From: Candidatus Kapaibacterium sp.
GTDB lineage: Bacteria > Bacteroidota > Ignavibacteria > Kapaibacteriales > UBA4661
NCBI GenBank assembly: GCA_004292595.1
Contig: RDXM01000118.1
Span: 1 to 64,000 of the forward strand
Length of the DNA stretch: 64,000 bases
Reading direction: 5' to 3'
In this document: piece after piece, positions 20,060-56,366 of the stretch
Position numbering within the stretch: position 1 is the first letter of the stretch
Layout of the letters: every line of letters starts with the position of its first letter
The notes under the pieces: model-generated
What the model was told of the DNA's origin: nothing
Databases searched by the model: none
What the model saw: only the letters and a program-made list of their open reading frames with translations
Translations under genes and position numbers: made by a program

Positions 20060-20305
20060 GATACCTTGCTTGCAGATAGATTGTGGGGAAGAATAGTTGA
20101 TATGCAAACTATTTTTGTAGAAGAAGTAATCTACGCAAAGACGCGGGAAAATCCAATGGGAAATGCAGAAAAAATATGCTAACAATGTACTTTTATCCCT
20201 AAATTCCCGTTACTTGTCCCATTTTCAACGCTATGTTGAGGCTTTTTCGTATTTTCTGTGCTGCGTTGTAGCGGCATCATGCGGCAATGCGTAGATTGTC
20301 ATTTG
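20060..20305. other. Non-coding stretch upstream of the foldback repeat
   Basis: AT-rich sequence between the cupin gene start and the repeat at 20306. I see no open frame worth calling. It should contain the cupin promoter, but I cannot place one with confidence. Confidence 0.4.
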
Positions 20306-20419
20306 AACGCAGATGAAGATGATTGAATTGATAAAGATGATAAAGACAAAACAGCTACACACTTGATTCTATACGCTCTTTCATCATCTTCATCAATATA
20401 ATCATCTTCATCTGCGTCC
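20306..20419. repeat. Foldback repeat core (AACGCAGATGAAGATGAT type)
   Basis: Two inverted arms, about 37 bases each, reading CGCAGATGAAGATGATTG at the left and AATCATCTTCATCTGCG at the right, enclose an AT-rich middle. The same arms occur at 38309-38434 and 42067-42173, where outer terminal repeats are also present. Here those outer ends are not recognisable, so this copy is eroded or a core only. Confidence 0.7.
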
Positions 20420-20499
20420 CAAAAAATCATAAAAATCTGCGCTCCGCTTCAAAAAAAACCGACCATGCTGCACTTTTGACCATTCTTTGCTCTGTTGTT

Positions 20500-23400
20500 A
20501 TGCTGTGTGTTTCTCTCTTTCGGAATTTGCTCGTGTTGATTCTCCTCCAAGCCGCATCAATCCTTGTTGCGGACGCACAATCCTTCACCGTATTTCAGCC
20601 TGACGCGAGTGCGTACCCGCTTGTGAAAGCACAGTTTTACGCGCTTTCCGCCGATGGTCGCCCGATGCTGAGTCTCACCAACAGCAATTTTTCCGTCCGC
20701 GATAACCGCACCGATGACCGCAAAATCGTCAGCATCGAATATCCGCCAGAAACAAGACTCCGTGCGGTCTCTGCGGTATTAGCTGTGGATGTTTCTGGGT
20801 CAATGGCGCAAGAAGAACGCATGACCTTTGCCCGCGATGCTGCTACGGACTGGGTTCGCACCATGCCACTCGACATTTCCGAATGCGCACTCACGAGCTT
20901 TGACGACGACAGCTACGTGAACCAAGATTTTACGCGCCTCCGACCGCGCTTGCTTTCCGCCGTGCAAGCTCTGAAGCCGCTCAACGGTACAAGCTACGAC
21001 AAAGGTTTTTTGCAAAAATTGACGGGATGCCTGAACGTGGCGCGGCGCGGTGCATTCAAGCGTGTGGTCGTGTTTTTAACCGATGGTTTAGGTGGCGGTG
21101 TGCAATCGAACATCGTCGAAGCGGCGCGGCGCGACAGCGTGAGTGTGTATTGCATCGCGCTTGGCTTGAAAATGCCACTTATTTTGAAGAATGTCGCCGA
21201 TAGCAGTGGTGGTGCGTGGTTTGAGAATATCACCTCGCGCGATGAGCTTATCCGCATTTATCGAAAAATTTTATACGAAACGCAAAATATCCAGCCAGCA
21301 ACAATCACCTGGAAAACAGATGTAGCCTGCTCTCCAAGCCGCACCACGCTTGTCAGTTTACGCTCGGCGGAAGGAGAATTGCAATCGACTGTGAAATACG
21401 ACACGCCGCCCATTTCGCTCGTCCGCCTTCAGGCGCAGCCGCGCTCGGTGGTGTTTCGGGAAGTGGCAATCGGCAATTCGCAAGGGCAGCGCATCACGCT
21501 TCGCGCCTTGTTCCAGCCCGTTACGATTACCGCGATTGAAACGAATAATCCTGAGTTCAAAATTGCTGGTGTGCAGCTTCCCATCACGGTTTCGGCAGGA
21601 ACGGTGACGACGTTTATTGTTGGATTCACGCCGCAAGATTCCACGCCGCAAGTAGGGCGCATTGATATTCGCACTGCCACCTGCGACCCCATTTCCCTCT
21701 ACGCCCGCGCCACGTACAGCAATAAACAAGCGGCAGCCACGCAAACACTCAGCATTACTGCGCCTTCTGAAGGTGATTTGCTCTACTCTGGCGCAGACAC
21801 CGTGCTGTCCTGGTCAGGAATTATGCCCTCCGAAGCCGTTGAGCTAGAATACAGCACTGATGCAGGTTCTACGTGGAAAAACATCACCGAAAGCGCGGCG
21901 GGATTGCGTACCATATGGCGTGTTCCGCCCGTTGCGTCGGGTGCGCTTGTAAATGGCGACCGCTCGCGTCCGATGCGCGTGAGGGCGCGTCAGGTCTGGC
22001 AAATGCCCGAAGGTTCGAGTGAACCTGATATGCTCTTGGATGCGCATTGGGGTTCGATTTTATCGGCGAAATTCAGTCCCGACGGTACGAAAATTCTCAC
22101 CGCCAGTGCCGATAGAACCATGCGGCTCTGGGATGCATACACAGGCGTTTCGCTTATCACCTACGAAGGGCATACAGGCTTGGTCGCCGACGCAGCGTTT
22201 AATGCCGATGGCACACGCATTATTTCTGCCAGCCACGATAACACGTGCCGCATCTGGGACGCAGAGACCGCACAAATGCTCGTTACAGGCTATGGTCAAG
22301 GCTTGAATCAAATATTTTTTTCGCAAATGAAAATGACGGGTGCAGAACGCTTGCAATTCGCCAGCACGGACAGCCGCAAGTTTTTCAGCGCAGTTTTTTC
22401 GCCGGACGGAAAAGAAGTAATGACGACCAGCGATATTGGAATGGCGGTGCAATGGAAAGCAGCATCAATGCGCCCTGTGGGGTTTGTTCGGCAGGTGGGC
22501 GGTTCTGTGTATTCGGTGCGGTACAATCAAGCAGGAAATAAAATTGTAACTGCTGGCGGCGACTTCTCTGCGCGGCTTTGGAGCGTACAAGGACGCTCAC
22601 CAGAGCAGTCTTTTTTCGGGCATACCGCGCAAGTTCTCCATGCTGCCTTTAGTCCTGATGAAAAAAACATTGTAACTGCCAGCGAGGACGGAACGGCGCG
22701 GGTCTGGGACATAAAAACGGCGCGTCCGCTCTTCACCATGGCACACCGCGCATCGGTCTGGTCGGCGGAGTACAGCCCCGACGGAAAGCGCATCGTTACT
22801 GCATCGCTGGATGCAACGGTACGGCTGTGGGACGCTCGCACGGGCAAGCAGCTCGCCGTTTTACGCAGCGCAAATAATGACAAACTGGGCTTTCAGTACG
22901 CGGAATTCAGCCCCGACGGCAGTCGCATTGTGGGTGCGGGCATCAACGCATTTGGAAATATCTGGGAAATTGGCGGCGGTTTTTTGCAAGAAGCGGAATC
23001 TAAAATCTTTCGCGTGATTGCGCCGCAAGCAACGGTGCGGGATGCAAGCATGGGCGGCGTAGCGGTGGGTGCGGTGAAAGATTCGCTCGTGGCAATACTT
23101 TCCAATCCCGACAAAGCCCTTGTCCGCGTGATGGATGCTCGTATTGTGGGCGCGAATGCAGAAGATTTTTCGCTCGTTTCGGGCATTCCACCTTTCGACC
23201 TTGCTTCTGGCACAACAAAATCCCTTGAAGTCCGCTTCCAACCTCGCGCGACGGGCAACCGCACGGCAACGCTGGAAATCATCACCTTGACAGACACACT
23301 CCGCGCCAAACTCACGGGCGAAGGACAGCAACGCCTTCTGCAAGCAGCACCATTACTGGAGTTTGGGAAAATTTTGGTAAATAAACGTAAAGATACCACG

Positions 23401-25014
23401 ATAACGCTTGTGCGCAACGTCGGTACGCAAAGCCTGACCATTACTCGCATTCAGGCATTGGGTCCGAATACGGAAGCCTTTAGCGCGTCGTTGGTGCAGA
23501 AGCGTCTGCCGTTTACGGTGCAAGCGGGCGATAGCGTGAGTGTTCAAGCGAGTTTCACGCCAAAGAGCAAAGGGCTTGCGAGCGGTGGCGTAAGAATTGA
23601 CGTAAAATCTGATGCACAAGAGAGCGGGAAGCCGCTTCAAGTCTTGTTTGTGGGCGATGGCGTTACGCGGGCAATGCAAGCGGAACTCGGTGCAGAGCTT
23701 CTTTCCTTGACCACTCTCGGCACTGCGAGCGATACCGTGAGCAACATGATAAAATCCAACAGCTTGCGCATTGAAGAACTCGAAACCGTGATGGTGCGTC
23801 CTGTGCTGAATTACCTCTTTTTCGATGAAGCAAGTGCCGAGATTCCCGCACGGTATCGGCGTTTGCTGGCAGATTCGACGCAGTTTTTTCAGGAAAATAC
23901 GAGCGATTCCCTTTTGCGAACATTGAACACCGCACAAAACCTACAAAACCAGCAACAAAGCGGCTCAGGAAGCGGCTTGGAAGGATATTACGATATTTTG
24001 AATGTCTTCGGAAAACGCCTCCGCGAGCGCGTGAATACGAGCCTCAAGGTTCTCGGCTGCAATAGCGACGACGGTGCGGAAAAAGGAAACACCGCACTTT
24101 CTCGCAAACGCGCCGAAGCTGTGCGCGACTATTTACAAGCAGTGTGGGAAATTGACGCACGGCGCATCAGCATTCAAGCCAGAAACAAGCCAGAACGTGC
24201 CTCGAACCCGCTTGACAGCGACGGCGCGGCGGAAAATCGCCGCGTGGAATTATTCCTTGAACCGCAAGAAGCAATGTCCCCGCAAGCAAGCAATGAAGCG
24301 ATATTTACCGCAGAACCAAGCGTGGTGAGGCTTTCACCGCGTGTGGTGTTTGCAAAAATGGAAACAAAAACGGAGGAGCAGGAAACGGATAAAGAAGAAA
24401 CTATCAACGAATGGTCAATAGATATGATGCTTGGACAGCGCATCATTACGACACTTTCAGGCACGGGCGCACTTCCGGCAACAATAGATTATCGCCCCAC
24501 AAGCGCGGAATTACGACGTTTTGCACTCAGTTTTCAACAAACACCTTCATCAAATTCCCCACTTCGTTTTCGCCTTCGTGCAAGCAATGGTGCGGGTGAG
24601 AGCGTTGCTGCGGAAAGCGCAATTATTCCCTTTAGCTTACATACACTGAAAAATAAACGCTTCGCAGACAGCACCAATACTCGTGTAGAGCGATTTGCCC
24701 TCACCTTTTTCGATTTCGACAAAGCAACCGTCAGCCCGCAAAATGCACTTATTCTCAATCTCGCCAAAAGCCGCATGAATGCTCGCACCGATGTCAGCGT
24801 TCTCGGCTACACCGACCGCATGGGCGATGCCGCCTACAACAAACGTCTCTCCAGCGACCGCGCCACTGCTGTCGCCGCGCTGATTCCTGCGTTGCCCTCG
24901 CAAAACAAGCAAGTACGCGGCATTGGGGAGTCTATTCTGCTGTATGACAATAGCTTGCCCGAAGGAAGGTTTTATTGCCGCATGGTGGAGATTTTTTTGA
25001 AAACGCACCCATAG
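20500..25014 (+). CDS. Giant secreted multi-domain protein: vWA, ASH, WD40, ASH, two OmpA-like domains
   Basis: About 1504 residues. The signal peptide ends near residue 26 (VADA-QS). A von Willebrand A domain (about 70-250) has the MIDAS motif DVSGSM. An ASH/HYDIN-like beta domain (about 308-407) and a second beta domain (about 420-510) follow. Then come WD40 repeats (about 512-825) with typical FSPDG...ASADRTMRLWD units, two more ASH-type domains (about 843-1053), an OmpA-like domain (about 1095-1257) and a final OmpA-like domain (about 1397-1504, with FFDFDKATVSP and LGYTDRMGD). It probably sits at the outer membrane, bound to peptidoglycan and displaying adhesive domains. The ATG at 20500 is preferred; an in-frame TTG at 20476 would add eight residues. 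It is transcribed alone. Confidence 0.88.
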   Translation: MLCVSLFRNLLVLILLQAASILVADAQSFTVFQPDASAYPLVKAQFYALSADGRPMLSLTNSNFSVRDNRTDDRKIVSIEYPPETRLRAVSAVLAVDVSGSMAQEERMTFARDAATDWVRTMPLDISECALTSFDDDSYVNQDFTRLRPRLLSAVQALKPLNGTSYDKGFLQKLTGCLNVARRGAFKRVVVFLTDGLGGGVQSNIVEAARRDSVSVYCIALGLKMPLILKNVADSSGGAWFENITSRDELIRIYRKILYETQNIQPATITWKTDVACSPSRTTLVSLRSAEGELQSTVKYDTPPISLVRLQAQPRSVVFREVAIGNSQGQRITLRALFQPVTITAIETNNPEFKIAGVQLPITVSAGTVTTFIVGFTPQDSTPQVGRIDIRTATCDPISLYARATYSNKQAAATQTLSITAPSEGDLLYSGADTVLSWSGIMPSEAVELEYSTDAGSTWKNITESAAGLRTIWRVPPVASGALVNGDRSRPMRVRARQVWQMPEGSSEPDMLLDAHWGSILSAKFSPDGTKILTASADRTMRLWDAYTGVSLITYEGHTGLVADAAFNADGTRIISASHDNTCRIWDAETAQMLVTGYGQGLNQIFFSQMKMTGAERLQFASTDSRKFFSAVFSPDGKEVMTTSDIGMAVQWKAASMRPVGFVRQVGGSVYSVRYNQAGNKIVTAGGDFSARLWSVQGRSPEQSFFGHTAQVLHAAFSPDEKNIVTASEDGTARVWDIKTARPLFTMAHRASVWSAEYSPDGKRIVTASLDATVRLWDARTGKQLAVLRSANNDKLGFQYAEFSPDGSRIVGAGINAFGNIWEIGGGFLQEAESKIFRVIAPQATVRDASMGGVAVGAVKDSLVAILSNPDKALVRVMDARIVGANAEDFSLVSGIPPFDLASGTTKSLEVRFQPRATGNRTATLEIITLTDTLRAKLTGEGQQRLLQAAPLLEFGKILVNKRKDTTITLVRNVGTQSLTITRIQALGPNTEAFSASLVQKRLPFTVQAGDSVSVQASFTPKSKGLASGGVRIDVKSDAQESGKPLQVLFVGDGVTRAMQAELGAELLSLTTLGTASDTVSNMIKSNSLRIEELETVMVRPVLNYLFFDEASAEIPARYRRLLADSTQFFQENTSDSLLRTLNTAQNLQNQQQSGSGSGLEGYYDILNVFGKRLRERVNTSLKVLGCNSDDGAEKGNTALSRKRAEAVRDYLQAVWEIDARRISIQARNKPERASNPLDSDGAAENRRVELFLEPQEAMSPQASNEAIFTAEPSVVRLSPRVVFAKMETKTEEQETDKEETINEWSIDMMLGQRIITTLSGTGALPATIDYRPTSAELRRFALSFQQTPSSNSPLRFRLRASNGAGESVAAESAIIPFSLHTLKNKRFADSTNTRVERFALTFFDFDKATVSPQNALILNLAKSRMNARTDVSVLGYTDRMGDAAYNKRLSSDRATAVAALIPALPSQNKQVRGIGESILLYDNSLPEGRFYCRMVEIFLKTHP

Positions 25015-38282: not shown

Positions 38283-38464
38283 GTAACTGGTCAGGTCATA
38301 ATTTTTTTGGACGCAGATGAAGATGATTGGATTGATGAAGATGATGAAAACATCAACAATAGATGAAATCTGCATATATCCTCCTATTTTCATCAATATC
38401 ATCTTCATCAATTCAATCATCTTCATCTGCGTCCTTTCTTCATTGCTAAGACCTGACTAATACC
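38283..38464. mobile_element. Foldback MITE-like element, diverged copy
   Basis: The left end GTAACTGGTCAGGTC matches the element at 42037 exactly; the right end (near 38450) is GACCTGACTAATACC, with several changes. The inner arms, GGACGCAGATGAAGATGA (38309) and its inverse ending 38434, are nearly identical to those at 42067-42173. The middle differs. No clear target duplication remains. Confidence 0.7.
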
Positions 38465-42036: not shown

Positions 42037-42199
42037 GTAACTGGTCAGGTCTCACCCATGAAGAGGGGACGCAGATGAAGATGATTGGATTGATGAAGAT
42101 GATAGTGATAAAAAAAATCAGAGCGTGAATGCATTCATCATCTTCATCCATTCAATCATCTTCATCTGCGTCCGAAAAAATCCTGACCTGACCAGTTAC
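42037..42199. mobile_element. 163-bp foldback MITE-like element with 8-bp target duplication
   Basis: Perfect 15-bp terminal inverted repeats, GTAACTGGTCAGGTC (42037-42051) and its inverse (42185-42199), are flanked on both sides by GTTTTGTC (42029-42036 and 42200-42207), an 8-bp direct repeat. The inner arms are the GGACGCAGATGAAGATGA type (42067-42173). No protein is encoded, so it would depend on a transposase elsewhere. This is the best preserved of three copies. Confidence 0.85.
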
Positions 42200-54725: not shown

Positions 54726-56366
54726 TTAGCGAACGACGGTCAAAGGCAGCGTATAGCTTTTGCCATTCACACGCACCGTGCAGAGGAACACGCCTGTTTG
54801 TGCGGCATTCAGGGGAATTGAATGCTCACCTGCTTGTAACTGCCCGCTCCAAACATTCTGCACCACGCGCCCTGCCGTGCTGAAGAGCGTAATATCTGCA
54901 TCCGCCGCTTTTCGCAACGTGAAACGCAGTGTTGATGAGCCCGCCGAAGGATTTGGAAAAATAGAAAATGCTTCATTATTGCCAAGAAATGCGAGGTCGG
55001 ATTGAACGCTCGTTGTGCGTGCTTTCACCACGCCAAGCGGCGCAAGACGCTCGCCCAGAATCGCGGTCGTGTCGGCTTCGGTCGCACCAAACCACGCTTG
55101 TAGGACGTTGGTATAGATACGGCGGTAATCGTATTGATATTGCTGGTCGCCGTTGCGCGTGAGATTTTGCAAGTCTGGCACATTGCCGAAGGTATTGCCG
55201 TTCACATTTGTTCCGAAGACGAATTGCACCGAAGCCGCGCCGTGGTCGGTGCCGAGCGAGCCGTTTTCTTGCGGTCTTCTGCCAAATTCGGACAGCGTCA
55301 TGCCGATAACGCGGTCAGCAAACCCTTGTTGGAGCGCGTCGGTTTGGAATTGCGCGATACCTGTCGCCAAAGCGCGGAGCAATGCGGGATGCACACCGCT
55401 TCCGTCGGACTGCTGCTGCAAAACGTGCGTGTCGAAGCCGCCTAAATACACGAGATACACTTTCGAGCGCAAACCGCCTGAAATCAGGCGAGCAACCATG
55501 CGGAGTTGCTGCGCAAAACCTGCTGCGTAGTCTAGCGTGTTGCGTCCTTTGTCGAAGGCTTGTTTGACAAGCTGCGAGTAGGCATCAGACTTCTGGGCAA
55601 TCGTGCGGACGTAGTTGTATTCGCTTGCAAAGGTGGAAGCATCGGTGAGTGCTTCGTCGTCGGGCGATAAACCTTGTCCCAAGCGGAAAAATTGTTCGGG
55701 GTCGGCGAGCGCGATGCCCATATCGCCGCGTCGGTCGTCCTTCAGCAGCATAGAAAGTGTGCCGCCAATTTGCACCGAGAGCGGATAATCAGGGATTTGC
55801 GAGCCTTGCGGGGCGTGAAGGCGAGCAATAGAGCGTCCCATCCAGCCGTCGGTGAATTGCGTGTTTGGGAGCGAAGAATTGATGCCAGAGAGCCAAATAT
55901 CGGTCGAGCGGAAGTGGGATAAATTCGGGTTTTCGTAGCCCACGCCTTGAACGAGTGCCAAGCGTCCGTCTTCATACATTTGCTGCATTCCGCCAAACGG
56001 AACGCCCGTCGTCAGCGCAGGATGCAAATATACCCGCGAGCCGAAAAGCCGCGTGGCAGCTTCCTTGCGGACGGCGAGCTTGGGGCGCAAACGGTAGTAA
56101 TCCGCACTGTCGGCTGGAATGATAGTGTTTAAGCCATCATTGCCACCAAAAAGTTGAATAATGACGAGAATATTGTCGCTGTTATGCGCTTCGGAGCCGA
56201 ATTTATCTTGCAAGGGCGAGGCAGACAGCACGGGCATTCCGCCAAGCATCGTTGAGCCAACACCAAGCGACAAGCCCAGTGCTGACGAGCTTTTCAGGAA
56301 GTCGCGCCGAGAAGCATTGTCAATAATATTGTTGCCAAGAGCGGGAGCAGAAAACGATGGTTTCAT
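54726..56366 (-). CDS. DUF1501 protein with Tat signal and T9SS C-terminal domain
   Basis: A 546-residue protein. The N-terminus has a twin-arginine signal (SRRDFLK followed by a hydrophobic stretch), so it is exported folded. The DUF1501 domain (about 65-440) shows QLFGGNDGLNTIIP, YLGGFDTHVLQQ and MTLSEFGRRPQENGSLGTDHGAA, the Asp/His/Glu residues of an alkaline-phosphatase-like fold. The last 80 residues (FSIFPNPSAGSSTLRFTLRK and onward) are a type A sorting domain of the type IX secretion system. The protein should therefore be carried to the cell surface. The substrate is unknown. ATG 56366 is preferred. Confidence 0.9.
   Translation of the reverse strand: MKPSFSAPALGNNIIDNASRRDFLKSSSALGLSLGVGSTMLGGMPVLSASPLQDKFGSEAHNSDNILVIIQLFGGNDGLNTIIPADSADYYRLRPKLAVRKEAATRLFGSRVYLHPALTTGVPFGGMQQMYEDGRLALVQGVGYENPNLSHFRSTDIWLSGINSSLPNTQFTDGWMGRSIARLHAPQGSQIPDYPLSVQIGGTLSMLLKDDRRGDMGIALADPEQFFRLGQGLSPDDEALTDASTFASEYNYVRTIAQKSDAYSQLVKQAFDKGRNTLDYAAGFAQQLRMVARLISGGLRSKVYLVYLGGFDTHVLQQQSDGSGVHPALLRALATGIAQFQTDALQQGFADRVIGMTLSEFGRRPQENGSLGTDHGAASVQFVFGTNVNGNTFGNVPDLQNLTRNGDQQYQYDYRRIYTNVLQAWFGATEADTTAILGERLAPLGVVKARTTSVQSDLAFLGNNEAFSIFPNPSAGSSTLRFTLRKAADADITLFSTAGRVVQNVWSGQLQAGEHSIPLNAAQTGVFLCTVRVNGKSYTLPLTVVR

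Follow-up and report, generated by a model that had tools for sequence, protein, structure and literature searches.

PorE (PG1058), a periplasmic lipoprotein of the type IX secretion system (T9SS) of Porphyromonas gingivalis, is the closest known analogue of the protein described here. It comprises a TPR, a five-bladed propeller, a CRD, and one OmpA domain, in which the side chains of an Asp/Asn/Arg triad contact peptidoglycan (PMC7192894). As reported, this propeller and OmpA protein has an outer-membrane partner and acts in the periplasm, between that partner and the wall (PMC7192894, PMC9143113). The motif TD(x)7NxxLSxxRA has been described for OmpA-like domains in general (PMC5104382). A second point of comparison is Tp0624 of Treponema pallidum, which has another overall architecture, with a single OmpA-like domain and a shifted triad motif, TAD(x)6.

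In this study, we analyzed one gene in a 64,000-nucleotide stretch of a Candidatus Kapaibacterium genome (hereafter, the window). Similar to PorE, the window protein combines an extracytoplasmic beta-propeller with a C-terminal OmpA-like domain that carries the Asp/Asn/Arg peptidoglycan triad. In contrast, it lacks a lipobox, its propeller is a seven-bladed WD40 propeller, and it contains a vWA domain, ASH domains, and two OmpA domains; neither TPR nor CRD is among the families shown for it. Membership of the PorE family was rejected, since the PorE model NF052230 scores 24.5 bits at this locus, far under its cut-off of 600 bits. A search of open-licence papers returned nothing relevant on such an architecture or on double-OmpA proteins of Kapaibacteria, which is not proof of absence.

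Gene and overall architecture

The open reading frame is intact from the ATG at 20500 to 25014 on the + strand, which also carries all domains described below, and encodes 1504 residues; orthologue matches span residues 1–1504. An in-frame TTG at 20476, eight codons upstream of the ATG, merely opens a 1512-aa frame. The domains are arranged in the order signal peptide, beta region, vWA, ASH, Ig-like, WD40, ASH, ASH, OmpA-like 1, Ig-like, and OmpA-like 2, with approximate borders. Curated family models back the vWA, choice-of-anchor D, and WD40 regions as well as both OmpA domains, and two AlphaFold models are consistent with the architecture given by the family searches. A first-pass annotation had proposed a giant secreted protein with vWA, ASH, WD40, and two OmpA-like domains at this position. 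Its coordinates and domain list hold, as profile searches and models recovered every named domain, including the vWA and OmpA folds, and the repeat is indeed WD40. The architecture is also unusual, as that annotation suggested, at the level of databases; it is no oddity, since the combination is conserved lineage-wide.

Structure of the N-terminal region and the vWA-WD40-ASH core

The N-terminus, MLCVSLFRNLLVLILLQAASILVADA|QSF, was judged by eye to be a Sec/SPase I-type signal peptide (residues 1–27, 20500..20580), and orthologues also have hydrophobic N-termini. The same inspection revealed no lipobox, and a lipoprotein reading was abandoned for this reason. A beta region (residues 28–92, 20581..20775), recognized from strands in the AlphaFold model, precedes the vWA domain (residues 93–262, 20776..21285; PF13519, E=1.2e-10). 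The MIDAS is intact, as had been claimed, and follows the DxSxS...T...D pattern: Asp97-x-Ser99-x-Ser101, Thr164, and Asp195 are invariant in 12 relatives save for one Thr-to-Phe replacement.

The choice-of-anchor D model NF012200 matches the chain with 103 bits in three stretches, which gives the "several" expected ASH-type domains a number. The first (residues about 305–410, 21412..21729) is supported by NF012200 and a weak ASH match. The second (residues about 845–945, 23032..23334) is also matched by PF15780 at 855–936 in the numbering of the 1512-aa frame, and the third (residues about 946–1055, 23335..23664) contains the best NF012200 stretch as well as a PF22073 match. Additionally, model strands indicate an Ig-like domain at residues about 415–495 (21742..21984), where no Pfam family exceeds its cut-off.

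Between the Ig-like domain and the second ASH domain lies the WD40 region (residues about 509–825, 22024..22974), with a closing strand just before it. PF00400 scores 141 bits, the AlphaFold model has 28 strands forming seven blades, and Foldseek aligns the propeller with the seven-bladed designed propeller 7big at a target TM of 0.96. Collectively, these results narrow the six to seven blades first suggested to seven, in a closed propeller. The accompanying remark that WD40 propellers are rare outside the cytoplasm needs qualification: extracytoplasmic WD40-type propellers are not unprecedented, PorE being a periplasmic propeller and OmpA lipoprotein (PMC7192894). The core model has a pLDDT of 83.6 and a pTM of 0.48, at which the mutual arrangement of the core domains is unreliable.

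The two OmpA-like domains differ in the peptidoglycan triad

Searched alone, each OmpA-like domain passes the PF00691 cut-off of 27.2 bits, domain 1 (residues about 1085–1265, 23752..24294) with 36.6 bits and domain 2 (residues 1393–1504, 24676..25011) with 41.5 bits. The AlphaFold model of the tail (pLDDT 86.7, pTM 0.82) shows an OmpA-like fold for both, with Foldseek matches to solved OmpA-like domains. The gap of about 140 residues noted between them corresponds to a spacer of about 125–140 aa, which models as an Ig-like beta-sandwich (residues about 1270–1390, 24307..24669) and has no Pfam match.

To compare the triads, we counted residues in 81 tail sequences. In domain 2, the triad Asp1439/Asn1447/Arg1454 is intact, and Asp, Asn, and Arg are retained in 81, 80, and 81 of the sequences, respectively. 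In domain 1, Ser1189 takes the place of the triad Asp, and Asn1197 and Arg1204 are kept. Across the alignment, the Asp column of this domain contains Ser in 61 sequences, Ala in 11, and Asp in only three. The Arg of domain 1 is conserved throughout (81/81), and the Asn is present in 67/81. Moreover, domain 1 has a signature of its own, Glu1245, Asn1246, and Arg1248, all invariant in the 81 sequences. Because the Asp is lost and Arg, Asn, and this signature are kept, domain 1 appears constrained and yet is probably not a canonical wall binder.

The first-pass annotation had offered two possibilities, namely, that the protein binds two peptidoglycan sites or that one OmpA domain is degenerate. 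Degeneration as stated was discarded in view of the strongly conserved signature, and on these residue counts domain 1 is better called specialized than degenerate. The first possibility, in which both domains bind peptidoglycan and crosslink two wall sites, draws on the well-modeled fold of domain 1 and its retained Arg and Asn, but the near absence of the triad Asp makes it quite unlikely. Furthermore, the motif NSD(x)6N of domain 1 is comparable to the shifted motif of Tp0624, whose D3 is reported to be unable to bind conventional peptidoglycan (PMC5104382). These findings point to the tail as a double-OmpA module found throughout the lineage, with a first domain that appears to have been repurposed.

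Distribution of the fused protein and its parts

Full-length searches found orthologues with the complete architecture in 7/8 genomes of the genus, including the source genome, and in one of the two other genera of the family. No orthologue was found in G002, which is fragmented (680 contigs), or in G008, which is 70% complete. The proposed check across genomes therefore shows that the architecture is not a one-off. The named relatives are MAGs of Ignavibacteria or Kapaibacterium. Only the closest relative has the same upstream genes, so the conserved neighborhood says little. Among the matches listed for 113 genomes of the order outside the family, there were no joined ASH and OmpA regions, a test by which the fused paralogue described next would be undetectable.

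This second fused vWA-WD40-ASH-OmpA protein is encoded in the source genome by a 1621-aa frame (L038, C138:7000-16000) and was confirmed in six other genomes of the genus, G002 to G007, which were those fetched for it. In this paralogue, an insertion interrupts OmpA domain 1, and OmpA domain 2 is intact. The parts are more widespread. The core, of about 1040 aa, is found order-wide. The OmpA-Ig-OmpA tail, of about 430 aa, occurs in whole or in part at about 25 loci of the source genome, mostly in frames of 700–900 aa, and is present in 12/12 sampled genomes of the order (source included) and in one further genome of the class. At E<=1e-15, the remaining 135 genomes sampled from the phylum gave no match.

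Core and tail are also encoded as separate, often paired genes

The usual carriers of the tail are outer-membrane barrel proteins, which have a beta-barrel (PF13568) where the window protein has its vWA-WD40-ASH core. These barrel-OmpA-Ig-OmpA proteins, about 25 in the source genome, share a homologous C-terminal tail with roughly 27–39% identity, and the libraries searched hold no dedicated model for them. Conversely, the vWA-WD40-ASH proteins of the C130 (source genome) and L106 type have a homologous core, about 27–32% identical over about 1040 aa, and end in a T9SS type A sorting domain (TIGR04183), whereas the window protein ends in OmpA domains. Several unfused core proteins end in this way. 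The source genome encodes SprA and has 85 TIGR04183 matches, two of them on vWA/WD40-core paralogues (C130 and C28). One further match in the window (54747–54962, - strand, 35.9 bits) forms the end of another protein.

At the loci from named genomes, a core gene lies less than 1 kb from 15 of 75 separate tail genes, on the same strand in all 15 cases, and the sole further unfused core gene near a tail gene lies further off. These loci were picked for holding the tail, and the counts reflect association, not genome-wide frequency. Six further clusters from relatives pair a core gene with a tail gene likewise. Because core and tail genes pair and unfused cores carry T9SS sorting domains, it is likely that two functionally linked proteins were fused. 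The sequence comparisons indicate that the window protein is likely a fusion of the core with its barrel-OmpA-Ig-OmpA partner in which neither the barrel nor the sorting domain was kept; the direction of the fusion is one we infer. A quick tree of the tails, with two labeled fused groups, is compatible with one fusion or two.

One and the same extracytoplasmic vWA-WD40-ASH core is found with either of two C-terminal ends: a T9SS sorting domain in some proteins and a wall-binding OmpA tail in others. We tentatively suggest that the separate genes may form a two-gene display, in which a T9SS-exported vWA-WD40-ASH protein would be held by its cognate, wall-gripping barrel-OmpA-Ig-OmpA partner, the window protein being a derived, barrel-free periplasmic fusion. 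The recurrent pairing of core and tail genes yields a direct, testable prediction on how these bacteria hold surface proteins.

Location and proposed role

Family searches and AlphaFold models show a signal peptide, vWA, ASH, and propeller in place of any beta-barrel segment, which sets the protein apart from OmpA porins. None of the 85 TIGR04183 matches of the source genome falls at this locus, and the chain accordingly lacks the C-terminal sorting domain of T9SS type A cargo. The label "surface protein" given to it earlier is unsupported: barrel, lipobox, and sorting domain are lacking, and the periplasmic wall is where OmpA-like domains act. With these signals absent and a wall-binding tail present, the periplasm, with attachment to peptidoglycan, is the simplest location. 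A surface-exposed adhesin that is exported to the outside by an unrecognized pathway and uses the vWA MIDAS to bind ligands would fit the core relatives of like layout, which carry T9SS sorting domains and so are probably surface proteins; the absence of all three signals and the OmpA C-terminus of periplasmic-wall type make it very unlikely.

On balance, we consider it probable that the window protein is a soluble periplasmic scaffold, exported by Sec and anchored to peptidoglycan by the double-OmpA tail at its C-terminus. After export, OmpA domain 2 would grip the wall via the canonical diaminopimelate triad, while domain 1 may pack beside it or bind something else. The ASH and Ig domains would serve as spacers, and the vWA MIDAS and WD40 propeller may be docking faces for partner proteins, plausibly outer-membrane or T9SS-related ones, although sequence conservation cannot tell which face of the protein binds what. 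Such a scaffold would have arisen when a core that is elsewhere T9SS-exported was fused with the tail of a barrel-OmpA-Ig-OmpA partner, often encoded adjacent to it.

A narrower version, which overlaps this reading and specifies the partner, casts the protein as a PorE-like accessory that serves the machinery of type IX secretion or surface anchoring and couples an outer-membrane partner to the wall. PorE itself has a periplasmic propeller joined to an OmpA domain, and the barrel that it binds, PorP, holds a T9SS cargo (PMC7192894, PMC9143113), and the genome has SprA and its many sorting-domain matches. We regard this version as unlikely, given the low NF052230 score of the window protein, its lack of TPR and lipobox, and a much better PorE candidate elsewhere in the source genome. 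The latter, a PorE-like propeller and OmpA protein at C194:27268-28488 (L151), scores 177 bits with NF052230, the best in the genome.

Inverted repeats in the window

An imperfect inverted-repeat element of roughly 100–120 bp was observed at window positions 20302–20422, 38312–38431, and 42070–42170. The end of the repeat arm, CGCAGATGAAGATGATT, has 136 occurrences in the genome with at most one mismatch (76 forward, 60 reverse), and its reversed control has 0. Six occurrences lie in the window, against 0.01 expected. The element looks like a dispersed palindromic repeat family, and one copy is located about 80 bp ahead of the ATG of the window gene.
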